A stretch of 64,000 nucleotides of DNA from Labilibaculum antarcticum (GTDB lineage Bacteria > Bacteroidota > Bacteroidia > Bacteroidales > Marinifilaceae). The position numbers and the translations under genes are program-made. Location of the stretch: the NCBI RefSeq assembly GCF_002356295.1, contig NZ_AP018042.1, positions 496,001 through 560,000 on the forward strand, given 5' to 3'. The notes below the pieces were generated by a model that saw only the letters and a list, made by a program, of their open reading frames with translations, had not been told where the DNA came from and searched no databases. Positions 20,485-41,792 of this stretch are shown one piece after another; within the stretch, counting starts at the first letter, position 1, and the number at the start of each line of letters is the position of its first letter.

Positions 20485-22158
20485 TTACCATCCAGGATTT
20501 TGTTCTATGTGAGTCAGATCAATCTCTGTTTGTGGAATTGGCCACAAATAGTGTTTGCCTGGATCAAAGGAACGTGTTCCCCATGAAAGAGTTACCTCTT
20601 CTAAACTATTTGGGTCGGTATATGTAAGTCCTTTTGGAACTCCAGGCATTACCGTTTCAGCAATTCTCCATCGGCGGATATCTAGTAAACGCAATCCTTC
20701 AAAAGCTAATTCTACTCTACGCTCTCGTCTTACAATTGTACGCAGTTCCGTTTGACTTTTACCTGATGTTACAACTGGCATATTAACATCGGCCCGTTGA
20801 CGCACTTCATTAATCGCATCATAAACCGACTGATCAATTTCATTAGCTTCTATCTTAGCTTCTGCATAAGTTAATAACACTTCTGCATAACGGATCAGAA
20901 TATAATGAATGGAACCATTCCACAAATCACCATTATCAACATCCTCTTCAGAAATGTATTTTAACCAATTGTATCCAGTACCCGTTTTATTCCATTGACC
21001 ACCTGTTCCATCAGTTAAATCATCTCCAGTAACTATTTCCTTTCCTGGGTACGTAGCACCTGGTATAGAATTAAAAACTCCGGCTCTCCAGTCATGGCCA
21101 GGATAAAGAATAGAATAAGTTAATCTAGGATCACGATTTGTATATGGATTATTAGGATCAAACAAACCTGATTCACCAATAAGCTCTCCATCTATGCATT
21201 CATAAGCATCAACAAGAGATTGCATTGGACAACCACTACTCCATCCTCCTACTGAATTTGGGCCATAGTTTTTAACCGTAAAATTGTACTGCTTTTCTTT
21301 TAATTCCTGAAGATCAAATATCACTTCTGAATTTCCAATTCCTTCATACGTGAACATCTTTTCGTAACTCGGATAAATTGTGTAAACTCCTAAATCCATT
21401 ACTTCCTTTGCCGTACTAGCTGCCTCTGTCCATTTCTCCTGGTAAAGAAGAATTCTAGCCTTCAGTGAAATTGCAGCACCTTTCGTTACTCTTCCCTCAT
21501 CGTCACTACCATATGAACTTGGTAGAATAATAGCGGATTCTGATAAATCCTTCACGATAGCATCCAAAACAACACTTTTATCGGTACGTCGAGTAGTTTC
21601 AGAAGCAACTTTATTGCCCTCTGCATCTTCTTCTGGACTTGTATCTTCAGGAGTAAGACTAGAAGTTATAAATGGCACATCTCCAAACAAGTACACCAAA
21701 TCAAAATAGAAAAATGCTCTTAAAAATTTTGCTTCAGCTAATAAACGAGATTTGTAATCTGCATTTATATCCGTTACACCTTCAGCGCCTTCCAATATTC
21801 TGTTCACTCTCTGTATTCCTTTGTAGCGTTCCATCCAACGGCTTTCCACATACCAATCATAAGCAGATGCAGTTCCGTCAGCCAAACGGTAACCTTCATT
21901 CCAAGAGTGATGGTCAAGAGCATTATCCGTAATTGCTTCAATTCGCAATAAATCTGTCGAATAACCGTAATCTACTCCCCAGTTATTAAAACCAATGGAT
22001 GCGTAAGCTCCATTAACGGCATAAACTAAATCTTTTTCTTGAGTAAAGAATGTTGCTGAAGAAACCTGATCACTGGGAGTTCGCTCCAGAAAATCATCAC
22101 TACAGCCTGCGAATACCATCAAAAAAACTGTGGCTAAGCATATTATATTTGTTTTCAT
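20485..22158 (-). CDS. susD: SusD-family surface glycan-binding lipoprotein
   Basis: Outer-membrane lipoprotein that captures glycan and forms the lid of the SusC channel. The signal peptide ends at a lipid Cys followed by Ser-Asp-Asp (GCSDDFLERTPSD), which fits the Bacteroidota surface-export signal. The 557 residues contain the usual helical repeats with AEAKFLRAFFYFDLVYLFGDVPF near 140 and RYAEVLLTYAEAKIE near 420, and end in WPIPQTEIDLTHIEQNPGW. It is the direct partner of the upstream SusC gene, 64 bases away. The ligand cannot be read from the sequence. Confidence 0.95.
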   Translation of the reverse strand: MKTNIICLATVFLMVFAGCSDDFLERTPSDQVSSATFFTQEKDLVYAVNGAYASIGFNNWGVDYGYSTDLLRIEAITDNALDHHSWNEGYRLADGTASAYDWYVESRWMERYKGIQRVNRILEGAEGVTDINADYKSRLLAEAKFLRAFFYFDLVYLFGDVPFITSSLTPEDTSPEEDAEGNKVASETTRRTDKSVVLDAIVKDLSESAIILPSSYGSDDEGRVTKGAAISLKARILLYQEKWTEAASTAKEVMDLGVYTIYPSYEKMFTYEGIGNSEVIFDLQELKEKQYNFTVKNYGPNSVGGWSSGCPMQSLVDAYECIDGELIGESGLFDPNNPYTNRDPRLTYSILYPGHDWRAGVFNSIPGATYPGKEIVTGDDLTDGTGGQWNKTGTGYNWLKYISEEDVDNGDLWNGSIHYILIRYAEVLLTYAEAKIEANEIDQSVYDAINEVRQRADVNMPVVTSGKSQTELRTIVRRERRVELAFEGLRLLDIRRWRIAETVMPGVPKGLTYTDPNSLEEVTLSWGTRSFDPGKHYLWPIPQTEIDLTHIEQNPGW

Positions 22159-22222
22159 ATAATCAATTTTTAAATAATCCGATAACTATCGAAAATTTCA
22201 CTTATTTCTCTCTTGTATTCTA

Positions 22223-25200
22223 TTAAAAACGAATTTGTACTCCAACCGTGTAGGTTGAAACCGGAGGATAGTAACTTGGTCTACCGTCATAAGATTCCGG
22301 ATCAAGTCCAGATTCAACATCTGTAATGGTAAAAAGGTTTGTCGCTCCAGCATAAACTCTAAGCTTCTCAAGTTTTAATTTTTCGAGAACTGATTTTTGA
22401 AAAGAATAACCTATTTGTAGGTTTTTGAGTCTAATATATGAAGCATCTCTTATCCAAAAATCATTATACAAGTAGTTGTTTTTGTTCGAAGCAGCCTGTA
22501 ATCGTGGAAAAGATGCATCAGTATTTTCAGGTGTCCAACGATCTAAAACTCTTTTGGTTGTGAATATTTCATATGATGGACCTTCATTTGGTGCTCCATA
22601 GAAGTAATTCTCAGCTTCTAAAACACCTTGCACAAAAGCACTAAAATCGAAGCCTTTGTATTCCATATACAAATTTAAACCAAAGGTATAGTGAGGAATA
22701 GGAGAACCAATCACTTTTCGATCATCATCATTTATTTCACCATCTCCATTTTGATCAACCAACTTGATATCTCCAGGTCTTAAATCGGATTGATTTGGTT
22801 GAGTTGCATGTTGATCAATTTCATCCTGAGTTTGAAATAAACCATCAGATACATATCCATAGAAAGAATTAATCGACTCTCCCTCTTTTAAAATATTAAA
22901 ACCACTTATTGATGGTTCATTCCCAGCAAAATCGATCAATTCATTTTTTACATCGGAGATATTAAAACCAACTGAGTAAGTCAAATCATTAATCTTATTT
23001 CGATGAATAATCGCTAATTCCCATCCAGTATTTCGAACCTGTCCTGCATTTGTTTCAGACGCTTCTAAACCTGTTAAATAAGAAATTGGTAAATTCAGGA
23101 GCACATCTTTTGTGTCTTTTTGATACCAATCAGCTACAATTTCAATTTTGTTGTTGAATAAACTTACATCAAAACCAAAATCAATCATCTCAGTAGTTTC
23201 CCAGGTTACATCTGTATTTGCATAATATCTCTGAGAATATCCATTTACCTCATTATCATTGAAATTATATGAATAATCAGCATACACAGTAGATGTGAAT
23301 CTATAAAGTCCAATATTTTGATTGCCTAATTGTCCCCAACTGGCTCTCAACTTAAGGTTGTCAATTTCACTAAAGCGATCCATAAAGTTCTCCTCACTCA
23401 TTCTCCAGCCAGCTGAAAAAGAAGGAAAAACACCCCATTTATGTCCTTCTGCAAATCTTGAGGAACCATCGTAACGAATATTACCTTCTAAGAGATATTT
23501 CCCTTTGTAGGAGTAATTAACCCTCCCCAAATAAGATAGTAATGACCAATCTTCCTGATAGCCATTATTAGTTTGACCTTCAGCATCACCAGTATTTAGC
23601 TCATCATAGTTCTCAGCATATATATTTGTTCTCATACCTCTAAGTACATAGGCCGTATTTTCAGTAATTTCAGAACCAGCTAATAAATCCAATTGATGAT
23701 CTCCAAACGTCTTATTATAATTTAGTAGAGCTTTAAAATTTAATTCCTCTTGTTGCAAACGTCTATCAACCAATCTACTTGGCGACCATTTCTGTATAAC
23801 ACTCTCAGTATCTTGCGGATCTACAAAATCGTATTCAGCTCGGAACTCCTTATAGCGATTATTAATGCTCTTGTATGAAAGGTCTGTTTTTAAAGTTAAT
23901 CCGGAAAGAACCTCTAAATCAGCTCCAACTTTCATGTTAAGCGCCTCTTTTACAATTTTATTTGTTCCCCCGACCTCAAGTGAAGCAAGAGCATTTGTAT
24001 TGTCCTTGTTTAAACCATAAGCACCATTTGGATATTTTAATACCATAACGGGCGAGGTGTTAATCATTTCACTTAAAGCGGAGTTATACCTATATGGTCT
24101 TTCATTATTTTTACGACTAAATGAAATATCTGCTCTAATTTTTAAATTATCCTTTACCTGAAAGTCCGTATTCAATCTAAATCCAAATCTTTTTGACTCT
24201 ACATTCTTAAGCATTCCCTGTTGATCCATATGATTCAAGGATAATGCAATTCTTGACTTTTCATTTCCTCCACTAATACGAATTGATTGATTAAATATTG
24301 GAGCTGTTTCAAATAATTCATCAAGAATATTTACGTACGGATAGTTAATTGGATCATCTCCAGCTACTGTATTTCTGATATATTCATCAGTATACTTTGC
24401 ATTTAAGCCAGCATTTACAAGTGCCTCATTAACTAGATTAAGATAATCTTCGGCATCAACCAATTCAGGAAGTGTTGCGGGCGTCTGCCATCCATAATAA
24501 CCATTGTAATCAACTTTATACTCACCTACTTTTCCTCTTTTCGTGGTAATCAAAATAACGCCATTTGCAGCTTTTGCTCCATATATAGATGACGATGCTG
24601 CATCTTTCAATATAGATATACTCTCGATATCATTTGAATTAACATCTCGTAATAACATTTCAATTCCATCAACCAACACTAAGGGCGAAGTTTTTGAAGC
24701 ATTATTGGCATCTGGAATACTCGCAATTCCGCGAATATTGATGTTAAGATTCTCGTCTCCGGGAGCTCCTCCACGATCAACGATTGTTACACCTGTAGAA
24801 ACTCCTTGCAGAGCCTGTCGAGCATCGGTCATTGGTTTTTTAACCATCTCGTCTCCTTTAACAGAAGATACTGATCCTGTTAGATTTGCCTTCTTTTGAG
24901 TACCATAACCAACAACTATAACCTCGTCTAGTCCTAGGGCATCCATCAATAAACTAACATTAATTATTGCATTGTCCGTAACTACAATTTCTTGATTTAA
25001 GTAACCAATAAAGCTAAAAACAAGGGTCGAATTTTTCGGAACCTTAATTTGATAATTTCCATCAAAATCAGTAACGGTACCTGTTGTAGTTCCTTTAACA
25101 ATGATATTCACACCAATTAAAGTTTCTCCATTTTTGTCAACCACATTTCCCTGTACATTGTATTCCTGAGTTTGGAGTACAGTTGTTTCCATTTTTCCAT

Positions 25201-25327
25201 TATCGGAAGATGCATATGCTGGTGTAACCGAAATAAAAAAAACGGCGCAACACAAGCTTGCAATCCATGAAAAACTTTTCTTTAGAAGGCTACTTTGCCT
25301 TGCTAAAACTCTTGAGTTTTGATTCAT
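22223..25327 (-). CDS. susC: SusC-family TonB-dependent glycan transporter
   Basis: Outer-membrane importer of 1034 residues. Order: signal peptide, carboxypeptidase-like regulatory domain (VQGNVVDKNGETLIGVNIIVKG), TonB-box/plug start DEVIVVGYGTQKKANLTGSVSSV, plug domain (NINIRGIASI, ANGVILITTKRG) and a 22-strand barrel ending in a C-terminal Phe (VGVQIRF). It lacks the extra N-terminal signalling domain of sigma-factor-linked SusC proteins, which fits control by the AraC-type regulator upstream. It pairs with SusD. A candidate operator lies about 170 bases upstream of its ATG. Confidence 0.96.
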   Translation of the reverse strand: MNQNSRVLARQSSLLKKSFSWIASLCCAVFFISVTPAYASSDNGKMETTVLQTQEYNVQGNVVDKNGETLIGVNIIVKGTTTGTVTDFDGNYQIKVPKNSTLVFSFIGYLNQEIVVTDNAIINVSLLMDALGLDEVIVVGYGTQKKANLTGSVSSVKGDEMVKKPMTDARQALQGVSTGVTIVDRGGAPGDENLNINIRGIASIPDANNASKTSPLVLVDGIEMLLRDVNSNDIESISILKDAASSSIYGAKAANGVILITTKRGKVGEYKVDYNGYYGWQTPATLPELVDAEDYLNLVNEALVNAGLNAKYTDEYIRNTVAGDDPINYPYVNILDELFETAPIFNQSIRISGGNEKSRIALSLNHMDQQGMLKNVESKRFGFRLNTDFQVKDNLKIRADISFSRKNNERPYRYNSALSEMINTSPVMVLKYPNGAYGLNKDNTNALASLEVGGTNKIVKEALNMKVGADLEVLSGLTLKTDLSYKSINNRYKEFRAEYDFVDPQDTESVIQKWSPSRLVDRRLQQEELNFKALLNYNKTFGDHQLDLLAGSEITENTAYVLRGMRTNIYAENYDELNTGDAEGQTNNGYQEDWSLLSYLGRVNYSYKGKYLLEGNIRYDGSSRFAEGHKWGVFPSFSAGWRMSEENFMDRFSEIDNLKLRASWGQLGNQNIGLYRFTSTVYADYSYNFNDNEVNGYSQRYYANTDVTWETTEMIDFGFDVSLFNNKIEIVADWYQKDTKDVLLNLPISYLTGLEASETNAGQVRNTGWELAIIHRNKINDLTYSVGFNISDVKNELIDFAGNEPSISGFNILKEGESINSFYGYVSDGLFQTQDEIDQHATQPNQSDLRPGDIKLVDQNGDGEINDDDRKVIGSPIPHYTFGLNLYMEYKGFDFSAFVQGVLEAENYFYGAPNEGPSYEIFTTKRVLDRWTPENTDASFPRLQAASNKNNYLYNDFWIRDASYIRLKNLQIGYSFQKSVLEKLKLEKLRVYAGATNLFTITDVESGLDPESYDGRPSYYPPVSTYTVGVQIRF

Positions 25328-29032: not shown

Positions 29033-30517
29033 TTAAAGAAATTCGTGCTTTTCTAAGAATGACTCAGAATCTTCTAATATTTTGTAGTAATAGTTTGACA
29101 CTCCTTTACGGTAATAAAATATTGGATGACCTGCTTTCTCATATAATTTCAACTCACATGATACCCCTGCATTTGTCATTTTTTCTTGATATAACTCAGC
29201 TTGCTTAACAGAGACCAAAGGATCATTGGTTCCCACTATTATTAAAGTTGGTGGTGTTTCCGAGTCAATATTATACATGGGTGAAATTTCTTCACACCTC
29301 TTCTTCATCTCTTTAGACCCATAACCACCAGGTCCGTTATCAACAACTGGATAGTAGAGTAATAAAAGGTTAGGTTTTGAGCTAATAGATAGATCTTCGC
29401 CAACTTCATCAAACTGACTAAGCGTTCCCGTTGCTGCAGCTAAATGCCCACCCGCTGATGCTCCAGCAGCAACAATTCTAGCTGTATCAATGTTGTAATT
29501 ATCTGCATTTCCCCTTATCCAGCGGATGGCAGATTTGGCATCACGAACACTCTCAAAAACACTTGTGCCATGCTCCTGTTTTATCCTATAATCGACACTA
29601 ATGGAAACCATTCCCTTCGATGCAAAGTAAGCACACTCCCTATAAAACTGAAGAGGTGTACCCACATTCCATCCACCACCAAAAAAATAAACAATGCATG
29701 CCTTCTTCTTTTCTGTATCAGATGGGTATGAGTTAAAAATATGTAGTTTTAATTCAGTTGAATCTATTCTCTTATAAACAACTTCTTCTGGATTGAATGA
29801 TTGTAAAGGTTTTTCTAAAACAGCCTCAAGGGCATCGAACCACTTATTGGCCATTTTTTTTGCCCCTTTTATGTTTGGATGTACTTTGTCTGGTAAACAG
29901 TCTTCTTTCCAATTAAACCCTTCAGCCTGATTAACCAAGGTTAGTGGATAACCTTCATTAGATAGCTGTTGTACCATCAGTGCTATTTTTTCATTTAATT
30001 CTGGTATATAGGAATATTTAGGCAACTTACCACTTTGAATAACTTGTGACACCAAAATCTTCACCTCTGGATTAATGGCAAAAATTTTTGCTATGATTGA
30101 TTTATGCATGGTAATGATACCAGGGATAGGGAGCTCTTCTGCAAGATGATTATGCCCTGCATGCAATAAAACGATATCAGCAGGATACTTTGTATAAATA
30201 CTATCAATGTGTGCATTCAGGTATTCTACATTTTCCCCACTAAAACCAGCATTCATAATGCTTCCTATTCGGCACTTATGCACATTAGGACCTATAAATT
30301 CAGTCCTATAACCTGCCGAAAAAAGTTTCTCCCAAAGAGGAAAAAGATAACTTTGTTTTTCACCTTTCCCTTCCGTAATAGAATCTCCTAAACCTAGGAC
30401 GGTATACGTTTTTTGCTTTTTGTCTTTTTCATCTTGTTTTTCTTTGTGTTGACAGCCTTGAAAAGGAAAAACTATTAGCAACAATAATATTTCTATTCTA
30501 TTAATTCTAAATTTCAT
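29033..30517 (-). CDS. two-domain esterase: SGNH hydrolase then alpha/beta-hydrolase
   Basis: A 494-residue lipoprotein (FQGCQHK, lipid Cys 22) with two esterase modules. Residues 38-230 are an SGNH/GDSL domain with the nucleophile in GLGDSITEG (Ser 46) and the acid/base pair in PDKVHPN (Asp 210, His 213). Residues 245-494 are an alpha/beta-hydrolase of the acetyl-xylan/feruloyl-esterase-like kind, with oxyanion loop FFGGGW, nucleophile in GASAGG (Ser 354), Asp 432 and His 464. Both triads look complete. It would remove acyl groups from the glycan. Last gene of the leftward operon that begins near 36142. Confidence 0.88.
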   Translation of the reverse strand: MKFRINRIEILLLLIVFPFQGCQHKEKQDEKDKKQKTYTVLGLGDSITEGKGEKQSYLFPLWEKLFSAGYRTEFIGPNVHKCRIGSIMNAGFSGENVEYLNAHIDSIYTKYPADIVLLHAGHNHLAEELPIPGIITMHKSIIAKIFAINPEVKILVSQVIQSGKLPKYSYIPELNEKIALMVQQLSNEGYPLTLVNQAEGFNWKEDCLPDKVHPNIKGAKKMANKWFDALEAVLEKPLQSFNPEEVVYKRIDSTELKLHIFNSYPSDTEKKKACIVYFFGGGWNVGTPLQFYRECAYFASKGMVSISVDYRIKQEHGTSVFESVRDAKSAIRWIRGNADNYNIDTARIVAAGASAGGHLAAATGTLSQFDEVGEDLSISSKPNLLLLYYPVVDNGPGGYGSKEMKKRCEEISPMYNIDSETPPTLIIVGTNDPLVSVKQAELYQEKMTNAGVSCELKLYEKAGHPIFYYRKGVSNYYYKILEDSESFLEKHEFL

Positions 30518-30609
30518 ATTATTACTTTTATGTAATGTCTACAATAAATACGACCTAATGTCAAAATATTTATATTAATAAGAGAACAAACCTTATTAAC
30601 AACAGACGT

Positions 30610-31692
30610 TTATTCTAAATCAAAGACATCAATACCCCAAGTATCCCGCCATGAGATTAACATTTTAGCATCCACAAATTTAATGGGCAACCAAATGTAT
30701 CTTCCTGTTATGGGTTGTTTGGGTCTCCAAATATCAAACATCGCAATGTAGGCATCATTCTTTCCCTGAACTGGAATTATGTAGGAGGCTTGTCCACCAA
30801 ACGTTTTTTCGACACCTAGGCTATCAATAGCATTGAAACCGCGACAAGGATTGCCGTGATAAGTCCATGTCCCTAGAAGGTTATCTGTTGTATGGTAACG
30901 AGCTGGGTTGGGATTCCATCCTTTCGATCCAGACCCCAACATATGGTACACCCCATTTCTTTTAATGACTGCTGGTGCTTCGGTGTGTACTTTAACACCT
31001 TCGGCTATCTGATATTCGCCATCGGGATAGTAGTAATCGGCATCCAGTTTCCCTATAACAAATGCCTTATCTGGTTTACGCACTGCTAAGTGATAAAGCG
31101 TACCATCATCATCCTTAAACATGGAAAAATCGCCTGAGCCTTTTGAGGTACCTCCCCCACGAAATTTATGGTGATAGGTGAATGGTCCTGCTGGTTTATC
31201 GGCAACAGCTACACCCACATAATTACTCTCGTATCCAACGCCCTTCAAATAAAGTTTAAAGAAAGCCACAAACTGCTTATTCTTTTCGTTGTAAACGACT
31301 TTTACACGTTCTAAGATACAACCATAAGCCAAATCGTGGTCTTCATCCTCATAGTCCACACTCAGTACAAGACCTTCATCATTCCAATTGAGCAGATCTG
31401 TGGAAGAATAACAATGAATACCGCCATCAGCAAATTGAGCTTCCGACTTGCCTTCCAATTTATGCTCGCCATACCAATAGTAAACACCATCATGAAAGAG
31501 GACACCTCCACCATGAGCATTGATCTGATGGCCGTTGGTATCCACCCAAATCTGCGCTGGTTTTATTTCTACTTGAGTTTCTTGGGCTGTTAATAGTTGC
31601 TGACTAAAACCCGTCAATAAAACTAGAAATAGTAATATTCGAACATCAATTATTTTGCACATATTATACTTTTTTAAAGAGAGAATTTTCAT
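30610..31692 (-). CDS. glycoside hydrolase family 43, galactanase-like subfamily
   Basis: A 360-residue secreted five-bladed propeller enzyme. The start of the first blade reads INAHGGGVLFHDGVYYWYGE, the form seen in GH43 subfamilies 24/34 (exo-beta-1,3-galactanase and relatives), in which the usual catalytic-base Asp of GH43 is not at its normal place. The probable acid is in HTEAPAVIKRNG near residue 240. The signal peptide favours either the ATG at 31692 or the one at 31662 (MCKIIDVR), which gives a shorter n-region. It lies 25 bases after the sulfatase gene, in the same operon. Confidence 0.82.
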   Translation of the reverse strand: MKILSLKKYNMCKIIDVRILLFLVLLTGFSQQLLTAQETQVEIKPAQIWVDTNGHQINAHGGGVLFHDGVYYWYGEHKLEGKSEAQFADGGIHCYSSTDLLNWNDEGLVLSVDYEDEDHDLAYGCILERVKVVYNEKNKQFVAFFKLYLKGVGYESNYVGVAVADKPAGPFTYHHKFRGGGTSKGSGDFSMFKDDDGTLYHLAVRKPDKAFVIGKLDADYYYPDGEYQIAEGVKVHTEAPAVIKRNGVYHMLGSGSKGWNPNPARYHTTDNLLGTWTYHGNPCRGFNAIDSLGVEKTFGGQASYIIPVQGKNDAYIAMFDIWRPKQPITGRYIWLPIKFVDAKMLISWRDTWGIDVFDLE

Positions 31693-31717: not shown

Positions 31718-33265
31718 TTAACGTTTCAATGGCCACCTCTGAACACCATGTTCATCGGCCCAAATTTTATATTTTTTAAGCAGTTCATTTTTCTCATCAG
31801 GATGTGATTCTACCAAGTTATCCATTTCATAGGGGTCTGCCTTAAGATTATAAAGCTCCCAATCTTTTTTATGAAGACTAACTAGTTTCCAGTCACCCAC
31901 ACGAACAGCGCGGTTACCTTCGTGCTCCCAGAAATAAGCCCTATCTTTATCTTGTTCAATTCCACGAGTAAGAGGCATGAAGCTTCTACCATCTAAAGGA
32001 TCCAATACCTTATTCTTATATGACACGGGGTATTTAGCTTCCGCAATATCGAGACAAGTAGGCATGATGTCTGTGATATGTGCCGGCTCTGAAATACGTA
32101 CCCCTCGTCCTTTTAAACCCTCTGGCCAATGCATTATTAAAGGAGTTATTATTCCGCCTTCGTGCTCTTGAGACTTTCTCATCCTATAAGGTGTATTACT
32201 CACATTATACCAAGTTCCATAAGCAGCATTACAATCCCGACTTCCCAGTCTGGCTTCTGGTGTTTTGTTCCATGAAGTCTGACAAGCGCCATTATCCGAC
32301 AAAAACATGACCACTGTATTTTTATCAATATGCTCATCTGCCAGTGTACTCATTAACTTTCCTATGTTTTGGTCTAGACAGTCAACCATGGCGGCATAAA
32401 CAGCCATCTTAAGGGCTTCATTATTCTTATTCTCTACTGTTTCCCAATCGCCGTATACCGGTTCTGACGCAGGCAAATCAGCTGACGCTATGCCTAGCTG
32501 CTTTTGCTTTTTAAACCGCGCCTTTCGAATCACATCGTAACCGACCTTATAGGTATCACGGTATTTATCGATGTCTTCCATTTTAGCCTGAAGAGGAAAA
32601 TGTGGTGCAACATAGGCCAAGTACATAAAAAAGGGCTTTCCCTTATCTCTACGATTTTTAATGTAGTCAATAGAATAGTCAGTAAAAGCATCGGTAGAAT
32701 ACCAAGTACTGTCTGGTGTTTGCTCTTCACCATTCCAATAAACCGGGCGATCATAAAACTGTGACGGGTAAAAATAAAGCCCCCCTCCTGCCGGAGTTCC
32801 ATAAAATTGATCAAAGCCTCGATGATCGGGCCACCATTCGCGTTGTTTGTTGCCGACATGCCATTTACCACTCATAAAAGTCTGGTAACCATTATCTTTT
32901 AGAGCTTCAGCAATGGTTATACTCTGATTATTCAAGTAGCCCTGATATTCGGGCAATTCAGACTTTGTATAATCCATGTGTCCGATACCGGCATCCCACT
33001 GGTACTGGCCTGTGAGCAAACTGGCGCGCGAAGGACAACAACGCGAGGCATTGTAAAAATGGGTAAACAAGACTCCTTCCGAAGCCATTTTATCGAGATT
33101 TGGGGTTTTTATCTCGGAACCCGTACAACCCAGATCAGAGTAACCCATGTCATCAACTAAGATGACTATGATGTTGGGTTTATCATTTTTTGCTGATAGA
33201 AAACAACTAGAGAAGCCAATTATAGTTATCAGAATTATTCGATAATAGATTGTCCTAGAGATCAT
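31718..33265 (-). CDS. S1-family sulfatase (arylsulfatase, S1_4-like)
   Basis: A 515-residue secreted sulfatase. The formylglycine motif is C76-C-P-S-R with ASLLTG, and the metal-binding residues are in LVDDMGYSD (Asp 38, Asp 39) and FLSDNGACQ. KWHVG carries the conserved active-site Lys and His. The RCCPSR variant and the GHMDYT, WWPDHRGFD segments fit the S1_4 branch. The signal peptide ends near CFLSA. One base separates it from the FMN-motif gene, so the two are cotranscribed and probably coupled in translation. Confidence 0.9.
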   Translation of the reverse strand: MISRTIYYRIILITIIGFSSCFLSAKNDKPNIIVILVDDMGYSDLGCTGSEIKTPNLDKMASEGVLFTHFYNASRCCPSRASLLTGQYQWDAGIGHMDYTKSELPEYQGYLNNQSITIAEALKDNGYQTFMSGKWHVGNKQREWWPDHRGFDQFYGTPAGGGLYFYPSQFYDRPVYWNGEEQTPDSTWYSTDAFTDYSIDYIKNRRDKGKPFFMYLAYVAPHFPLQAKMEDIDKYRDTYKVGYDVIRKARFKKQKQLGIASADLPASEPVYGDWETVENKNNEALKMAVYAAMVDCLDQNIGKLMSTLADEHIDKNTVVMFLSDNGACQTSWNKTPEARLGSRDCNAAYGTWYNVSNTPYRMRKSQEHEGGIITPLIMHWPEGLKGRGVRISEPAHITDIMPTCLDIAEAKYPVSYKNKVLDPLDGRSFMPLTRGIEQDKDRAYFWEHEGNRAVRVGDWKLVSLHKKDWELYNLKADPYEMDNLVESHPDEKNELLKKYKIWADEHGVQRWPLKR

Positions 33266-33266
33266 T

Positions 33267-34373
33267 TTATATTTTATTTAAAAACTCTCTTAATAAATAA
33301 TGATAAGTAAACCCCGTATTTTTACTTGCTTTTTTTAGATTAGACAGACAATTTTTACTGATAAAGTTGGGATCAGAATTTAAGCACTTTAGATAAAGCT
33401 TCAGTTGATTTCTGGTCATACGATCTAAATAATTTGAAAGTATTTCTATTGCATCTGGGTGTGCCGATTTTAATCTATTAATCAGCAATGTCCTTGAATT
33501 GACATCTATTAGCGAAAATTCATTATAAAATTGGCTCGTTATTTCTTTTTCAGATAAAATATCACTGGGTATCTTTTTTAGAATATAAGCTTTGCCTACC
33601 CCATCAGCTGTCCTAAATATGTTTAAGATTTGTGTGGCATGTTCTTTAAAATCTTCTTTAGGCAATTCCCTTAAAGCAAACATCTGATAATCGTTATATG
33701 GCGCATATAAAAAATAATGCATCAACGTATCAGAACTTATCGATGTCAAATATTTTTCCATTTTCTCTTGTGCTTCGCCATGTACTAGGTGCCATATCGT
33801 ATAACAGGAATACAAGCCACCTTTCACAAGCGATTCTGCAATTTCTGTTTTTGTAGCTCCAGAAATTCCATCAATAACTTCTGAGTCTATAGTTGAAGTC
33901 GCCACTGGTGCTTCATCAATTAAGTCAGATACTTTTCGCCTTTTAAGAATCGAATTATCATCTAATAATAATTGATGCAGCTTAATATAATCCTCTTTTC
34001 CAAATTGTTCGTGTTCAAACTTAGTCAGTTGAAACTCTGGAGATATACCGTACCCCACATAATTACCCAATAAATCCCAGTACACATTAATATGTGCTAG
34101 TTGGCACACACCATCAGCACAAACTGGCGTTTCTATTTCTGAGAAAAATAATCGAGGTGCTCCTGCACTATTAGATAACAATCGCACCTGATGACTTATT
34201 TGAGTATGGTAAACAGTGTCTAAAGATTCAAATTCGAAAATGAACTCATCTTTAGAAATATCTTTCCATTCATTCGTCATACTAAAAAACATAGGGCTAT
34301 AATCAGATTTACGTTGTTCCTGGAACCCCACGCTAATGAATAGTATAATTATGAATGCTAACTTTTTACACAT
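33267..34373 (-). CDS. exported protein with ApbE-type flavinylation motif
   Basis: A 368-residue exported protein, not in a family I can name. It has a signal segment, a Cys pair C85-x4-C90 followed by a strand-rich part (HINVYWDLLGNYVGY, then LTKFEHEQFGKEDYIKLH), and D168-G-I-S-G-A-T174. That heptad matches the Dxx(S/T)GA(T/S) motif where ApbE attaches FMN to Thr in FMN-binding domains. The C-terminal 170 residues are helical, perhaps HEAT-like. The start overlaps the stop of the FAD oxidoreductase by one base, so the two should work together. Covalent FMN is inferred. Confidence 0.65.
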   Translation of the reverse strand: MCKKLAFIIILFISVGFQEQRKSDYSPMFFSMTNEWKDISKDEFIFEFESLDTVYHTQISHQVRLLSNSAGAPRLFFSEIETPVCADGVCQLAHINVYWDLLGNYVGYGISPEFQLTKFEHEQFGKEDYIKLHQLLLDDNSILKRRKVSDLIDEAPVATSTIDSEVIDGISGATKTEIAESLVKGGLYSCYTIWHLVHGEAQEKMEKYLTSISSDTLMHYFLYAPYNDYQMFALRELPKEDFKEHATQILNIFRTADGVGKAYILKKIPSDILSEKEITSQFYNEFSLIDVNSRTLLINRLKSAHPDAIEILSNYLDRMTRNQLKLYLKCLNSDPNFISKNCLSNLKKASKNTGFTYHYLLREFLNKI

Positions 34374-36142
34374 TATTGTTGCTTCTCTATTACCTCTAAG
34401 TATTCTTGAAGGTGTTTTGTATATACCTCTCTTGGCGTCACGTTATACTTCTCGCATATTGCGGCTGCAATTCCAACGGCAGCCCCCATTTGTCCAGTAG
34501 TAAGCATTACTCTTGGACCGCCTAAACCTATATGAGAACAACTAAAATTTCGACCCGCCATAAATAGGTTGCTTATGTTTTTGGAATACAAACTTCTGTA
34601 CGGAATATAATACTTCGGGCCTTTATAAAAGAGCGCTTCCGAAAGGAAATCGGGTTCTTCGCTATCTTTTAGATTTATTTGATAATGAACATCAACGGCT
34701 CTTTTTTCCTCTACTACAGCATCTTCAAATTTTGTAAGATTCTTTACATCGTTAAAAGTGTATATATAATCTCCTATTAATCTTCTAGATTCCCTTTTTC
34801 CTACTAAATAAGAAACCCACTCCAATTTATAATTCTTGTTCTCATCTAATTTCTTTGCATTAGCAAACGAGCCATAGATGGCACGTAACATATGATCTCT
34901 AATTTCTTCGGCATCATCAATTTGATGGAGGTCATTTCTTGAGAACTCCCACTGCCATTCGCCTGCAATAGCTTTATGTTCTTTAGCTACATCCGCAGCC
35001 CACGGTAATTCTGGAAAATCATGCACTTCATTTGTTTTTTCATTCTGCCAAAGCACAGAAGCTCCCATAACAAAATCATCCCCTTCTTCGGGGCTCCACA
35101 GCTCTCCCCATTTATCCCAAGCCTCGCCATAGGTTTTTGAACTCTCTCGGCCATATGAAAACTCGGCCCCAGCCCAAAAACCAATCCATCCATCACCTGT
35201 TGAATCAACAAAACGCGGTGCTTTAAAGCGGATACGTTCCCCTGTAGCTGTATTCCTCGCATCTACATATTTGATAGCGTTATTCTCAGATATAGCATCG
35301 TATGCTCTCCAATCCAAAAAGAGATCTATGTTTTTATAACTCTTAACATTTTTATCGCGTCTTTCCTGGTCATATTTTGCCTTATAAGAACCATTAGGGT
35401 AGTGCTCAGTATCAATCATTTTTAAGATGCGTTCGAACTTTCCATATATACCTAAGGTATGCACTCGAATTTCGTCACTGGCATTACCTCCTAACACTGG
35501 TCTATCATGAATTAAAGCTACATTTAATCCTTGTTCTGCGGCAGAAATAGCCGCGGCACAGCCTGCAAGACCACCTCCAACGATGACTAAATCGTAAGAT
35601 TTTTGTTGTTCAGGAATGGTAGTCTCTCCTAATTTAGCTTTTCTCCAAGAAGCCAAATTAGTTTCCGCCTCTGTGGGCATTTTCTTTGATTGACTAAAAT
35701 AGATAGCATCACATCTACCATTAAATCCTGTTAGATCGGACAATTGGATTTCGACCTCATTAGATTCTATATTGACTTTCCCAGCATATTCCCAAGTCCA
35801 TCCACTAGTAAGGCCAAGTGTGTTTTTTAAGACCTTTCCATTAACAGATATTTTGAATTGCCCAGGAGCATCCCAATTTCCTGGAGCCCAGTTCTTAGTT
35901 CTAGCCCAAACATGATACTTTCCTTTTTCTTTAAAATTCACATTAGTAATGGCATTCTCCACCGGAACTCCCATACCATGAGCCATTAAATAAGGTGACC
36001 CCATTTGTTCCACAAATTGAGGGTCTACAACCCATCCTCCTTTATCAACAAAACTTTCAGCTTCTATTAATACATCCTGTGCTACACTATTTGTATAGAA
36101 TGATGTTATACAAATAAATAGAATTAATTTTAGTGTTTTCAT
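34373..36142 (-). CDS. secreted FAD-dependent oxidoreductase with N-terminal sandwich domain
   Basis: A 589-residue exported flavoprotein. After the signal peptide (TNSVAQ) residues 24-150 form a beta-sandwich of carbohydrate-binding type. The FAD_oxidored-like domain starts with the dinucleotide loop VIVGGGLAGCAAAIS (G189-G-G-L-A-G194), continues with RPVLGGNASDEIR, RFVDSTGDGWIGF, and ends with MAGRNFSCSHIGLGGPRVMLTTGQMGAAVG. This kind of protein is common in polysaccharide loci, but its reaction is unproven. It overlaps by one base the downstream gene with a flavinylation motif, suggesting an electron-transfer pair. Confidence 0.82.
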   Translation of the reverse strand: MKTLKLILFICITSFYTNSVAQDVLIEAESFVDKGGWVVDPQFVEQMGSPYLMAHGMGVPVENAITNVNFKEKGKYHVWARTKNWAPGNWDAPGQFKISVNGKVLKNTLGLTSGWTWEYAGKVNIESNEVEIQLSDLTGFNGRCDAIYFSQSKKMPTEAETNLASWRKAKLGETTIPEQQKSYDLVIVGGGLAGCAAAISAAEQGLNVALIHDRPVLGGNASDEIRVHTLGIYGKFERILKMIDTEHYPNGSYKAKYDQERRDKNVKSYKNIDLFLDWRAYDAISENNAIKYVDARNTATGERIRFKAPRFVDSTGDGWIGFWAGAEFSYGRESSKTYGEAWDKWGELWSPEEGDDFVMGASVLWQNEKTNEVHDFPELPWAADVAKEHKAIAGEWQWEFSRNDLHQIDDAEEIRDHMLRAIYGSFANAKKLDENKNYKLEWVSYLVGKRESRRLIGDYIYTFNDVKNLTKFEDAVVEEKRAVDVHYQINLKDSEEPDFLSEALFYKGPKYYIPYRSLYSKNISNLFMAGRNFSCSHIGLGGPRVMLTTGQMGAAVGIAAAICEKYNVTPREVYTKHLQEYLEVIEKQQ

Positions 36143-36292: not shown

Positions 36293-38776
36293 TTATTGAT
36301 AAACCAGCCAAGCTGTTGCAGAACAGTCTTTATCAGATACAAATCGTATCCAACGTGCCTGAAAGCTTGTAGGAAATTCATATTCGAATGTTTCTCCAGG
36401 TTTTACCTGCACCTCTTTATAGTTCATCCAAGGTCCATGCCCAATAGGTTCAACCTCAATTTTAAAAGTAACTGTTTCTTCCGAATCATGCGAGAGGGAC
36501 AAAGATCTTTTATCGTAAAACCCAATTAGATAGGCATCAGAAGGAACACTAGCTTTTACAGCCGTATTTTTCCATGGCCCACCTCTACCTACGGGTTTAC
36601 CCAAAGTCCAAAGATCATCAATAGCACCTAACCAAAGGGCTGCCTTACCATCATCAGAACGCACAATGTGTTCTCCAGCTTTTGCGTCAGTATCTATACC
36701 TGTCATCACAAGCATACCTCTGTACGAAGCGTAATCATGAATGCGGAAATGATGAGACGAAATAGGTCTTATCTTAGCAAAGCCATCAGCATTTTCGGCT
36801 GGTAATTCGTAAAATGTACCTGAACAACTTAGTAGGTCACGTTCTGTGGCTACCTCGCGACAGATTCTTAATTGTGCCTGATTAGTTAATCCTTCATACA
36901 GCTCACTGCCCAAAGGCAAACGCCATCTACGATCTCTATCATCAACAATTAAAACCGACGATTCTTGAATATCTACTGCATTCTCGGGTATAGCAAATTT
37001 TTCATTGATGAATGTATTGGTTTTAACATCCTCTTTCTTAACAAGATTAAACGCATCATCCAGTTCGTAATATCCTGTTTCTTTTTCCACTCCATTCTCA
37101 AAAGTCTTAGACGAAACACCAAGCGCACGACGGTTATCACCCAAACCATATAACAAGCCACCCATTACATTGGCTTCTTCAACTTTCGCTAGACCATTAA
37201 ACATGGCTGCAGCTTGGTTTTGTCTTTCATCTATATCAGAGTAGTTAAAACTAACTGTAGCCACCGTTTTCGATGTAGAACGTACGCGAATCCACTCCCC
37301 TTTTTCTTCTGAAGTAAACTCAACATTTGCTGATGCTCCAGCTTTTAATGCTACCGTTTTTATTTCATCCCAATTCTGATTCCCCATTTTATCTACCTCA
37401 AAAACGAATTTAGTATCCGAAGCTCCTCCATTCTGAATCCAAGCCATTCGTTTAGGCCATCCAGCAAAGAGCATAGGTTCTGACGTTTCATTGGCAGCTA
37501 CTTTATCATTTAACCACACTGAACCAGATGCCGTATTAGGTCCCAGTTGGTCAGGTTTATCGAACGAAGTAAACCATAGGTTTGAATTGGATTGTCCAGG
37601 TCCTTCTATATTGCCTTTTTGCTTTCTTTTATTCAGAAATTCCTTTTGAGCAGAATCATCGCAGCCAAAAACCAATTGATCATTCCATCGTGTAAAATCA
37701 CCAATAACCTTTAAATAAGCTGATCGTGGACGAATCCCCGCAGAGTTTTTAGCTGTAAACGTTTCTGGAAATTTCCAAAACATACCGTGCATAGTCATTA
37801 AATAATCGGATTTTTCTGTGGTGCCTACATTTCTAATACGTGGCCATTCTGTATTCCAACCATGCGCCCCATCGTAACTATGACTGGCTTTTGGTAAGCG
37901 GTAAAAATCCCAGCCCGTTGTGGCATTTCTAACACCTAAAATAATAGATTTGTAATCAAAACCTGTTGCCCATATGGGATCAGTTTCAGGATTCTTATTA
38001 CCATAAATACCACCAGGCCCGGTAACTTCGACAAATTGGTTACGGCGTGCAACCTTCCAGTCTTTACCATCCCACTCAGCAAGCACTCCAGCTTCTGTAT
38101 CAAAATCGGTTTTAGCTTTTTTACCAGCTTCTCCATTATTAGAAAATACCATAACACCCTGTCCTGAATACAAACCTTTACCATGTGCCCCTGGTAAATC
38201 AGCCAATTTTTGATTGGCATTAAGCTTAGGATGTTGAGCAATCCTTCCTTTTTCATTATTTCTGTCTTTATACAATTCATTATGCTCGAGAGTCTTGACA
38301 TCCACTTCATAAAAACCCTCCTCCATTGTTCCGTAATAAATCTTATTCTCGGGATCAGTGAGGTGACGTGCATTCCCCGTGTGGCGACCTGGCATATCTG
38401 TGTAAGGAATAGCTCGAACATTCCTCGCTGTATCAACAGCATAAGGTCCAATAAAAAGCTGTTGGCTTTCTTTGTGGATCATACGATTAGCAGGGGTTCC
38501 TCCAAGACTTTCTTCTCTCACTATTTGCTGTAAATCAGGTGTTATTTCGTACAGTTTATCATCGGTATAAACAGGCCAATGAGGAGCATAAGTAATCACC
38601 CATAGCCTATCGGCCCAGGGCACAATAGCACCTGTTCCACACTCACCTTGGCTGTTATACATCGCCAAGTGTGGATAAATCCCACTCACTTGACGGGGAC
38701 TTTTCGTTGTCGTCTGTGTGCTCTGACACGAAAAAAGAAGTGTAATTAGTGCTAATAAGCAAAGTGAATTCCTCAT
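36293..38776 (-). CDS. large lipoprotein of unknown function, propeller-like
   Basis: An 827-residue lipoprotein (LFSCQSTQ, lipid Cys 17). I do not recognise a family. The first 650 residues have repeated strand patterns rich in W, G and D (ADRLWVITYAPHWP, KIYYGTMEEGFYEVD, LPGAHGKGLYSGQG, NDQLVFGCDD), compatible with a seven- or eight-bladed propeller and with surface exposure. The last 100 residues form a jelly-roll-like domain ending RWIRFVSDKDCSATAWLVY. It may be a binding protein, a lyase or a hydrolase; conserved Asp, His and Tyr residues are scattered in the propeller part. It lies between the FAD oxidoreductase and a sulfatase, same strand. Confidence 0.6.
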   Translation of the reverse strand: MRNSLCLLALITLLFSCQSTQTTTKSPRQVSGIYPHLAMYNSQGECGTGAIVPWADRLWVITYAPHWPVYTDDKLYEITPDLQQIVREESLGGTPANRMIHKESQQLFIGPYAVDTARNVRAIPYTDMPGRHTGNARHLTDPENKIYYGTMEEGFYEVDVKTLEHNELYKDRNNEKGRIAQHPKLNANQKLADLPGAHGKGLYSGQGVMVFSNNGEAGKKAKTDFDTEAGVLAEWDGKDWKVARRNQFVEVTGPGGIYGNKNPETDPIWATGFDYKSIILGVRNATTGWDFYRLPKASHSYDGAHGWNTEWPRIRNVGTTEKSDYLMTMHGMFWKFPETFTAKNSAGIRPRSAYLKVIGDFTRWNDQLVFGCDDSAQKEFLNKRKQKGNIEGPGQSNSNLWFTSFDKPDQLGPNTASGSVWLNDKVAANETSEPMLFAGWPKRMAWIQNGGASDTKFVFEVDKMGNQNWDEIKTVALKAGASANVEFTSEEKGEWIRVRSTSKTVATVSFNYSDIDERQNQAAAMFNGLAKVEEANVMGGLLYGLGDNRRALGVSSKTFENGVEKETGYYELDDAFNLVKKEDVKTNTFINEKFAIPENAVDIQESSVLIVDDRDRRWRLPLGSELYEGLTNQAQLRICREVATERDLLSCSGTFYELPAENADGFAKIRPISSHHFRIHDYASYRGMLVMTGIDTDAKAGEHIVRSDDGKAALWLGAIDDLWTLGKPVGRGGPWKNTAVKASVPSDAYLIGFYDKRSLSLSHDSEETVTFKIEVEPIGHGPWMNYKEVQVKPGETFEYEFPTSFQARWIRFVSDKDCSATAWLVYQ

Positions 38777-38856: not shown

Positions 38857-40254
38857 TTATTGAATACCGAGTACTTCCTCTTTATGCTTGTCAATCCATT
38901 TCTGAAGCTCTTTAATAACTTTTTTGTAGGAAGACTTTTCAATAAGATTATCCATTTCGTCGACATCGTATTGTTGGTTATATAACTCTCTGAAAACAAC
39001 CTTTTTCAAGCTTTCATCTTCGTAGGTTACAATGTATCTGTATTCTTTTGACACCACCGTAAGGTTTGGTAAGGTTCCTCCATAATTCCCCAAGCCTTCG
39101 TAAACAAAAGCATCACGAATCGACAGTTTTTCACCAGAAAGAATGCCAGCAATACTTTTCCCATGAATAGCACTCGAACTTTCAATACCTGCTAATTCCA
39201 TAATTGTGGGAGCCATATCAATATTCAAGACCAGGTTATTGTTTAAACCGGGTTTAATATCTGGACCTACAACAAAAAGAGGAACAGATGAACACGGCTG
39301 ATAAGGTAATACCTTGCTAGTAAAACCATGTTCGCCAAGCATCCAACCGTTATCACTCATAAAGAATATGTAGGTATTTTCCATTAAATCCAGTTCCTCA
39401 ATTGTCTTAAACAAGCGCCCAAGAGCATCATCCATCTCGGTGATTACCGAATAATACTCTTTGGTGTGTTTTTGAATGGCTACAGAATCGGGATATCCGT
39501 AATCTTTGGATTTCGTACAATTTCGTACTGTTTTTAGGTAATCTGGCTTATTGTTCAGGTTATCAAGACGAGTTGTAGATACCGGCATCTCTTCCTGCTT
39601 GTACTTATCAAGCGTTTCCTGTTTTGCATTCCAAATTAATTTGCCATTCATGTGTGGTAGCTGGGTGTTATGAAAAAGAAAAAAGGGTTGATCTTTCGAC
39701 GCGGCATCTTTTAAAAAGTCGATTGAACGATTGACACAATATTCGTCACAGTGGATTTCAGGATTCACTTTTTTGCCCATATCGAAAATTGACCTTCCGT
39801 AATAAGCTCCATTTCCTTTAAAATAACAGTAAAAATCAAATCCAGCCTCCTCTGGTTTTGTTCCTAAATGCCACTTTCCTGACATGGCCGTATTGTAGCC
39901 CGCCTCTTTCAGATAAGAAGCAATAGTAATTTCATTTTCGTTTAAATCGCTATTTAAATGCAAAACACCATTTGCACTTCCATAACGACCGGTGAGCAGT
40001 GCTGCACGACTTGGGCTACAAAGGGCAAATACAACATTCGCATTTAAAAATCGTATGCCTTCTTGTGCAAACCGGTCTAACTCAGGGGTAATAATTATCT
40101 CATTCCCATTAAATCCAGTTGCATCTTGCCGTTGATCGTCGGAATAAATAAAAATAATGTTAGGTTGATTTTTCGATTCTTTCTCAGGTACTTTGAATGA
40201 AAAAAATAGTAAAGCCAAAAGAAGAATTGCTAAAAAAGAAAGTATTTTATTCAT
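38857..40254 (-). CDS. S1-family sulfatase (iduronate-2-sulfatase-like branch)
   Basis: A 465-residue exported sulfatase. Formylglycine motif C79-S-P-S-R with AALLTG; metal site in YSDDQRQDATG (Asp 39, Asp 40) and MSDNGWMLGEHG; active-site Lys/His in SGKWHLG. The SDDQR form of the first motif and the MLGEHG segment are typical of the S1_7-type and related branches that include iduronate-2-sulfatases and algal-galactan sulfatases. The C-terminal end is duplicated as a decayed fragment just upstream (40338-40480). Confidence 0.9.
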   Translation of the reverse strand: MNKILSFLAILLLALLFFSFKVPEKESKNQPNIIFIYSDDQRQDATGFNGNEIIITPELDRFAQEGIRFLNANVVFALCSPSRAALLTGRYGSANGVLHLNSDLNENEITIASYLKEAGYNTAMSGKWHLGTKPEEAGFDFYCYFKGNGAYYGRSIFDMGKKVNPEIHCDEYCVNRSIDFLKDAASKDQPFFLFHNTQLPHMNGKLIWNAKQETLDKYKQEEMPVSTTRLDNLNNKPDYLKTVRNCTKSKDYGYPDSVAIQKHTKEYYSVITEMDDALGRLFKTIEELDLMENTYIFFMSDNGWMLGEHGFTSKVLPYQPCSSVPLFVVGPDIKPGLNNNLVLNIDMAPTIMELAGIESSSAIHGKSIAGILSGEKLSIRDAFVYEGLGNYGGTLPNLTVVSKEYRYIVTYEDESLKKVVFRELYNQQYDVDEMDNLIEKSSYKKVIKELQKWIDKHKEEVLGIQ

Positions 40255-40556: not shown

Positions 40557-41792
40557 ATGGTTTTGATCACTAATAAATATAAAAAACGTCTTAACTTCAT
40601 AAAAAAAGGAGTTATACAAAAGTTTGGAAAAGGTCAATCCACAAACTGGCGAAATCGTGATTTTGAAGATTTAAGTTTTGACATTAATAAGGCAAGCAAG
40701 GTTTTAATCAGTGCTACCACCTTAAAAAGAATTTTTGGTAAGAGTAAAACTTCTGACAAATACTATCCACAGGAATCGACACTAGAAGCGATGGAAAAGT
40801 ATGCGACAATAACAGTAAATGAAAAGATCACGATTCTGCATTTCTTTAAAAAGACAACTTTCTTATTACTAATTGTTCCCATTCTGATTGCTGGTATACT
40901 ACTTCTTTATCGATTACAAATATCTTCCTCAGATAAATTAATCTCGGCAAAAATTGAATTAAAAAAAATAGATGGAGCCAACCCGGCAACGGCATTTTTT
41001 CATTATGAAATTCCAGATACGAAAGACTCCCTTTTTGTTTCGTTTGGCGATGAATACCCACTAAAGCATCTTTTGGCAACAAAGCAATTAATTTCACATT
41101 TCTATCGCCATCCGGGAATTTTCAATGTTAACGTAAGCACTAGAAGACAAGTATTATCTGATACACTTAAACTATTTATTCCGACTACCGATTGGCAAGC
41201 TTTGGCCCACTATTATCATCAAAACTATACCGAAAGGTATTTTCCCGTACCCATAGAATTGACAACAGGTGATGAAGGATTCCATCCAACACGAAAAGAT
41301 TTAGCAAATATTGGAATGGACACCACTCAAATCATTGTTCTACGTTTGGATAATTTCAAAAAAACAGGAATAAATGGCGATACATTCAACTTAAAAACGC
41401 GGATAAAAAACATAAACTACTGGCCAACTATTCGCTGTTATTCTGCCTACATTAATGTCATTGGTGAAAGTGGATTGATAAGTTTTAAACTTACCAACGA
41501 AGGATGTAGCCAATTTGGGGAGTTTACTTTAAGTGAAAAAACAGCACAGGGGTCTTATGCCGACTTAACAAATTTTTCACTGAATATTAAAAGCTGGAAT
41601 GAAATTGAAATTAAAAACACGAATCAACACGTTCAGGTAAACATCAATTCGGCAATAGTCTTTCAGGAAGAATACAATAACTCAATAGGTGAAGTACTGG
41701 GTGTTTCGCTAAGATTTCATGGCAGTGGTTATATCGATTACTTCGAATTACTGGATAAAAATAACGCGCCAATCTTTGAACAAAACTTTTAA
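40557..41792 (+). CDS. membrane-anchored one-component regulator with periplasmic sensor
   Basis: The only long plus-strand gene in the polysaccharide locus. Residues 1-98 form a cytoplasmic domain with FGKGQSTNWRNRDFEDLS and SATTLKRIFGKSKTSDKYYP, a pattern known from N-terminal putative DNA-binding domains of Bacteroidota membrane proteins. One membrane helix follows at about 101-120 (FLLLIVPILIAGILLLY). The outer 290 residues are strand-rich and end with a concanavalin/LamG-like part (WNEIEIKN...GYIDYFELLD). Function as a glycan-sensing transcription regulator is inferred from architecture and location. It is divergent from the sulfatase genes on its left and convergent with the GH42-like gene. 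Confidence 0.72.
   Translation: MVLITNKYKKRLNFIKKGVIQKFGKGQSTNWRNRDFEDLSFDINKASKVLISATTLKRIFGKSKTSDKYYPQESTLEAMEKYATITVNEKITILHFFKKTTFLLLIVPILIAGILLLYRLQISSSDKLISAKIELKKIDGANPATAFFHYEIPDTKDSLFVSFGDEYPLKHLLATKQLISHFYRHPGIFNVNVSTRRQVLSDTLKLFIPTTDWQALAHYYHQNYTERYFPVPIELTTGDEGFHPTRKDLANIGMDTTQIIVLRLDNFKKTGINGDTFNLKTRIKNINYWPTIRCYSAYINVIGESGLISFKLTNEGCSQFGEFTLSEKTAQGSYADLTNFSLNIKSWNEIEIKNTNQHVQVNINSAIVFQEEYNNSIGEVLGVSLRFHGSGYIDYFELLDKNNAPIFEQNF

Follow-up and report, generated by a model that had tools for sequence, protein, structure and literature searches.

A putative flavinylated electron carrier encoded beside a PF12831-type FAD oxidoreductase in Bacteroidota

Introduction

Covalent-FMN carriers that serve extracytosolic FAD reductases are already known, as set out in the covered parts of two studies (PMC8238504, PMC11334425). 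In the solved FMN-bind domains SaFMN3-D2 and CbFMN4-D1, as described in the covered part of PMC10339131, three antiparallel strands are followed by a helix and then, after a loop, by a final helix beginning at the flavinylated Thr, and the covered part of PMC4348036 places Thr229 of NqrC at a helix start. Mutational work in the portion of PMC12052999 considered here indicated that the acceptor Thr of the ApbE-type motif is essential and that its Gly and Ala are important, with only minor effects of an Asp to Ala change. In the parts covered of PMC8238504 and PMC11334425, neither the carrier family described below nor the Pfam family PF12831 is named, and none of the terms PF12831, FAD_oxidored and carbohydrate was found when the main text of PMC8238504 was searched for them. 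The pairing of this carrier with an FAD oxidoreductase was not described in the titles and abstract openings searched, a coverage outside which most subscription journals fall.

Here we describe a 368-aa protein encoded in a 64,000-nucleotide stretch of the Labilibaculum antarcticum genome, the whole of which is referred to as the window. The customary view of polysaccharide-utilisation loci (PULs) is that they combine hydrolases, lyases, sulfatases and transporters. In many Bacteroidota, frequently in gene sets that serve the digestion of sugar polymers, an apparently secreted flavin enzyme is encoded beside an unnamed protein that probably bears a second, covalent flavin, and this suggests that a poorly known electron-transfer step outside the cell belongs to sugar breakdown. 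We propose, with a probability of about 0.7, that the 368-aa protein is a secreted covalent-FMN electron carrier for the adjacent FAD oxidoreductase, itself probably secreted. The observations behind this proposal are conservation, pairing, hydrophobic N-termini, a frequent PUL setting and apbE linkage in some lineages.

Results

Organization of the locus

The features of the locus are collected in Table 1. The start of the carrier ORF and the stop of the FAD oxidoreductase ORF overlap in one shared base (34373), and the gap between the carrier stop and the downstream sulfatase ORF is also a single base (33266), so that the ORF coordinates agree with the layout described in an earlier note on this DNA. 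The region also holds GH2, GH97 and further sulfatase genes beside those for the GH43-like protein and the esterase. Divergent from the cluster is a gene for a 411-aa protein (40557-41792, + strand) whose N-terminal pattern, judged by eye, suggests a regulator; its close homologs were found in 2 of 89 loci, L087 and L015, in the latter beside the pair formed by a carrier paralog. Downstream of that pair in L015 (12176-14329) is a 717-aa protein with, by eye, the look of a LamG-type sensor, a transmembrane segment and a DNA-binding-like C-terminus.

Table 1. Features of the carrier locus, in window positions.
Feature	Position	Strand	Basis or remark
Putative flavinylated electron carrier, 368 aa	33267..34373	(-)	Hydrophobic N-terminus, beta-rich domain, C-terminal alpha-solenoid (about 200-367)
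Codons of the ApbE-type motif D168-T174 (DGISGAT) in the carrier gene	33852..33872	(-)	D and T invariant, 94/94 homologs
Partner FAD oxidoreductase, 589 aa, PF12831	34373..36142	(-)	Pfam; N-terminal region possibly carbohydrate-binding
Sulfatase directly downstream of the carrier	31718..33265	(-)	Pfam PF00884
Second sulfatase, upstream of the carrier	38857..40254	(-)	Pfam PF00884
827-aa protein without a Pfam family over cut-off	36293..38776	(-)	Homologs in 17/89 loci
GH43-like protein and esterase (BD-FAE/GDSL), same cluster	29033..31692	(-)	Pfam
SusD and SusC-type genes of the surrounding polysaccharide-utilisation region	20485..25327	(-)	

The FAD neighbour matched Pfam FAD_oxidored (PF12831) over residues 184-582 at 8.8e-66, with 223.3 bits against a cut-off of 27. 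A match to PF00890 also exceeded its cut-off (39.2 bits), with its best stretch confined to residues 184-220, the FAD-binding start; no full-length PF00890 (fumarate-reductase-like) match to this protein was present in the Pfam scan. From Golvesin_C matches in two relatives of the partner, which were below the cut-off of that family (E 0.0007 and 0.19), we weakly infer that the N-terminal region of this protein may be carbohydrate-binding. The only two Pfam matches of the 368-aa carrier itself, to NOT2_3_5_C and UPF0058, were both under cut-off and in its helical tail, and were taken as chance. An NCBIfam scan likewise gave no family, or none convincing, for the carrier.

Distribution of the carrier

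Among 96 genomes comprising L. antarcticum and its relatives, four had the carrier, with three copies in L. antarcticum. A search of 392 genomes of the phylum with the carrier profile identified nine with a carrier (ten before G362 was left out, its match being confined to the helical part, positions 239-353 of 377 in the profile). A pattern scan of public genomes returned 195 places, the best 80 of which were used, so that the counts given here lean to closer relatives. Removal of four repeat copies and four identical sequences from the 101 ORFs matching the core profile left 93, which with the window protein made an alignment of 94 carriers. The places found in public genomes lay in Flavobacteriaceae (Zobellia, Arenibacter, Maribacter), Saprospiraceae and Lewinella relatives, and also in Algoriphagus, Echinicola, Spirosoma, Larkinella, Runella, Dyadobacter, Chitinophaga and others. 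On a Flammeovirga plasmid, a distantly related protein with 27.6% identity across half of the query is annotated "hypothetical protein" and is flanked by genes annotated "FAD-dependent oxidoreductase" and "sulfatase-like".

Conservation of the motif and of two cysteines

The sequence DGISGAT, which begins at residue 168, and the pair C85/C90 are present in the carrier as the earlier note had read them, that is, as an ApbE-type motif with a preceding Cys pair; the remaining cysteines are at residues 2, 190, 330 and 342. The strict motif, Dxx[ST]GA[ST], occurs once among the 38 window ORFs (18,577 aa). In shuffled window ORFs its rate is 0.083 per window, and when the carrier sequence itself was shuffled 20,000 times it arose in 19 cases. 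The motif alone would be weak evidence on a genome-wide scale, and it is its conservation that constitutes real evidence.

Conservation in homologs, on which the earlier note had made its reading depend, was found: among the 94 aligned carriers D168 and T174 were invariant (94/94 each), G172 was conserved in 99% and A173 in 98%, and the two cysteines were near-invariant (C85 93/94, C90 94/94). The strict motif was kept in 61/94 and the wider form Dxx[STA]GAT in 91/94. The strict motif was broken in 33/94, and 30 of these breaks were an Ala at motif position 4 (residue 171), which is otherwise Ser or Thr. The three carriers outside the wider form read DALSGST, DIHSSAT and DAVTGET.

The DIHSSAT sequence is that of a carrier paralog in the L. 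antarcticum genome (L016 9282-10424; C1 about 943294-944415), in which the Gly is lost and the Asp and Thr are kept, and which is still adjoined by a Tat-type FAD gene. DAVTGET is found in the second carrier copy of Flagellimonas algicola (L064 13364-14500), in which Tyr replaces C85.

A hydrophobic N-terminal segment, scored by a hydropathy count rather than by a signal-peptide predictor, was present in 91/94 carriers and in 83/89 FAD proteins, some of the sequences being cut by contig ends.

Pairing with the FAD oxidoreductase

A PF12831-like gene was directly adjacent, and on the same strand, to 91 of the 93 non-window carriers (61 upstream, 29 downstream and one on both sides). The two exceptions were L072, truncated by the start of its contig, and L035, for which a wider stretch (L202) has the order FAD-ApbE-carrier. 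The order of carrier and FAD genes varies between lineages and the pair stays together. The L. antarcticum genome has 16 PF12831 matches, of which three span the full length, and these three adjoin the three carriers one to one. Across the 392 genomes, a strong match to PF12831 (E of 1e-35 or lower) was found in 9/9 carrier genomes and in 85/392 overall. The converse did not hold, as 76 of the 85 genomes with a strong match had no carrier match. This comparison is a fairer control than one made with 30 other PF12831 loci, in which no carrier was found in the flanks (0/30), as those loci were the highest-scoring rather than a random set and partner types score lower.

Of the 129 PF12831 proteins placed in a tree, 90 were partners and 89 of these fell into one clade of 98 members (SH-aLRT 98), none of the 30 other PF12831 proteins was inside this clade, and its remaining nine members came from carrier loci. 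The tree came from a quick search, contained several long branches and was rooted at the midpoint; nine rows had been dropped as duplicates or short. The FAD neighbour in L038 lay outside the clade on a very long branch, and its status as a partner is weak. L038 has the most divergent carrier, which is beside a 1056-aa FAD protein with a Tat-like start (L204 5521-8691, G257); it is a fragment of this protein that is on the very long branch. Distances between carriers correlated with those between their FAD proteins (r=0.85, 90 pairs), the best of 500 permutations reaching 0.19. Adjacency and mirrored distances partly reflect shared descent. Together, these data bear out the co-occurrence of the gene pair in other genomes that the earlier note had looked to.

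Locus setting

The 76 loci of 9 kb or more included 48 with SusC, 44 with SusD and 21 with a sulfatase; 61 had at least one of the three and 15 had none. The sulfated-glycan setting of the earlier note is one of several settings across the family. Homologs of the 827-aa protein were found in 17/89 loci and in 15 of 18 cases were encoded one or two genes upstream of the carrier, and this protein may be a third part of the carrier-FAD module. A CstA transporter gene was present in 21/89 loci, usually right after the pair and mostly in Flavobacteriaceae (L040-L044, and Arenibacter, for example L075 9089-10528). The neighbouring genes are too varied for any single substrate to be named. With neighbours so mixed, we adopted neither a 3-keto glycoside chemistry such as that of the GMC glycoside 3-oxidases (PMC10646112, in the part covered) nor a reduction of lyase-made double bonds.

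Linkage to apbE

The L. antarcticum genome has two apbE genes, the absence of which would have counted against the motif reading; neither is near the window pair. The first is at the end of an NQR-like operon and the second (apbE2) is in what appears by eye to be a thioredoxin/ApbE/DUF4266/DUF3570 cluster. NQR, RNF and three FMN_bind-polyferredoxin genes were also recognized by eye in this genome. An apbE gene was present in 12/12 carrier genomes tested; as apbE is found in 256/392 genomes of the phylum generally, presence alone is weak evidence and linkage is stronger. An apbE gene was within five genes of 16/93 carriers, 15 of them from Spirosoma, Runella, Rudanella, Dyadobacter and Chitinophaga; the other, L035, is from another family and has a different gene order. 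The order in the wider stretch of G285 is carrier-FAD-ApbE, and in Dyadobacter bucti (L114) it is carrier-FAD-ApbE-carrier-FAD, with the two FAD proteins on different branches of the partner clade.

Predicted fold and relation to FMN_bind

An AF2 model made from the 94 sequences (mean pLDDT 91.6) had strands at residues 41-51, 58-67, 73-86, 89-99 and 105-110, a helix at 126-137, the motif loop, a helix at 172-181 with T174 near its start, and then an alpha-solenoid. The motif loop (160-171) was the least certain part, with pLDDT under 50. Compared by element order from published descriptions, the sheet-helix-motif-helix arrangement agrees with the solved FMN-bind domains. A Foldseek search with the whole carrier model returned mostly helical-repeat proteins among the best 50 of 442 rows; no FMN-bind protein was among these 50, and in none was E below 0.001. 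With respect to the FMN_bind fold looked to in the earlier note, the order of elements in the model agrees and the best 50 structural matches include no such protein.

The sequence-level check named in that note was a profile search against the FMN_bind family. Pfam FMN_bind (PF04205) did not match the window carrier, and no member of the 94 exceeded its cut-off; more members nevertheless matched it than any other Pfam family (14/94 at E up to 1, with a best E of 0.017). In a PDB profile search with the carrier, CbFMN4 domain 1 (8p2b) came second (E 0.13), aligned on the motif. An hhalign comparison of the carrier with 31 FMN_bind-locus proteins gave 79.8%, against at most 2.1% for controls (154 windows, 18 families), and 31% was obtained with the six FMN_bind proteins of the L. 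antarcticum genome. The alignment of 31 retained two rows (L189, L191) without the motif in the aligned columns, and one of 32 loci (L179) was lost as it had no ORF. When the seven motif columns were masked the value fell to 0.2%, which indicates that the profile similarity to FMN_bind rests on the motif only. Based on this loss, and on Pfam and NCBIfam giving nothing convincing, we rejected membership of FMN_bind by sequence.

Discussion

Under the proposed mechanism, ApbE would attach FMN to Thr174 of the carrier, a step suggested by the invariant motif and the clustered apbE genes, and the beta-rich N-terminal domain would hold the FMN in a manner similar to that of FMN-bind domains. The C-terminal alpha-solenoid probably docks the FAD partner. 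Electrons would then pass between the membrane pool and the FAD of the partner by way of the covalent FMN, and the FAD enzyme would oxidise or reduce what is presumed to be a glycan unit during breakdown in the periplasm or at the surface. The core idea of the earlier note withstood most of the refuting conditions that it had set, and its FMN-to-FAD direction and dehydro-sugar substrate are conjectural within this scheme. In L. antarcticum, NQR, RNF and the three FMN_bind-polyferredoxin proteins are possible membrane links.

The carrier may be a diverged FMN_bind carrier like those beside fumarate-reductase-like enzymes, with only the oxidoreductase family and the substrate differing, and we rate this a little short of an even chance. 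It would account for the common secondary-structure order with the Thr near a helix start and for FMN_bind being the family matched by most members, and the covered part of PMC8238504 describes PF00890 reductases that have an FMN-binding domain either fused to them or encoded no more than two genes away. However, similarity outside the motif was not detectable, no FMN_bind match exceeded the cut-off, no NCBIfam family was convincing, and the carrier has extra strands, a near-invariant Cys pair and an alpha-solenoid tail. The vanishing of FMN_bind similarity without the motif would instead fit an ApbE substrate of a new class that has no relation to FMN_bind and acquired the motif on its own, in the way that DUF2271, DUF3570 and Flavodoxin_4 did. 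Several unrelated ApbE substrates are documented in the parts covered of PMC8238504 and PMC11334425, but the sheet, helix, motif, helix order matches that of FMN-bind domains, and we consider such an independent origin unlikely.

A different role for C85 and C90 would be as a redox centre or electron entry, in which a thioredoxin-like protein reduces the pair, which passes electrons to FMN and then FAD. The near-invariance of both cysteines is in keeping with this, as are a TlpA-like thioredoxin gene that follows the carrier in four Algoriphagus loci (Pfam confirmed on one), a redoxin gene that precedes the carrier-FAD pair in Flammeovirga, and the apparent DUF3570-thioredoxin cluster of apbE2 in L. 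antarcticum, a set of genes described in the covered part of PMC8238504. However, the adjacent thioredoxin is found in just 4/89 loci, and the two cysteines lie at what is predicted to be a hairpin of strands 73-86 and 89-99, a position at which a structural disulfide is equally likely, so that we regard this role as distinctly improbable. That no flavin is attached, and that the carrier serves the FAD oxidoreductase as a structural or maturation factor with a motif kept for another reason, is very doubtful, as the Asp and acceptor Thr are invariant and apbE is near 16/93 carriers, even with Ala at motif position 4 in 30/94, one paralog reading DIHSSAT and flavinylation itself being a prediction.

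For the Bacteroidota as a whole, we judge the odds to be evenly balanced that an unrecognised family of ApbE substrates acts as dedicated covalent-FMN carriers for a clade of secreted FAD oxidoreductases, making a membrane-linked redox step routine in extracellular glycan breakdown, perhaps fed through the Cys pair by thioredoxin in some lineages. If the proposed flavin relay exists, it would add a step outside the cytosol that consumes or produces electrons, and would tie glycan breakdown to respiration. It would also account for the "hypothetical protein" and "FAD-dependent oxidoreductase" that recur as a pair, and would supply some apbE genes with a target. The carrier-FAD pairing opens the function of a little-studied clade of oxidoreductases to direct tests.

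Comparison with known systems

With the FMN_bind (PF04205) carriers NqrC, RnfG and SaFMN3/CbFMN4, the 368-aa carrier has in common the ApbE-type motif and the predicted sheet-helix-motif-helix order with the Thr near a helix start. It differs from them in having no match over cut-off and no similarity outside the motif, and in its Cys pair and alpha-solenoid tail. The DUF3570/DUF4266/thioredoxin-like system (PMC8238504) likewise brings together flavinylation, predicted here, Cys chemistry and thioredoxins; in contrast, DUF3570 was not among the matches of the window carrier, and the section of PMC8238504 covered describes no FAD oxidoreductase partner. The DUF2271 and Flavodoxin_4/FMN_red substrates (PMC11334425, PMC8238504, as far as covered) resemble the carrier in being outside FMN_bind and found by apbE linkage and motif, but belong to other Pfam families, which are absent from the matches of the window carrier and from the 25 families listed for the 94 members. 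The flavinylated fumarate-reductase-like enzymes (PF00890 with an FMN-binding domain), as presented in the covered part of PMC8238504, resemble what is predicted for the present pair, namely an FAD oxidoreductase outside the cytosol with a covalent FMN carrier to serve it. The present pair differs in that the partner belongs to a PF12831 clade, the carrier forms a family of its own without a name, and the setting is often a polysaccharide-utilisation region.
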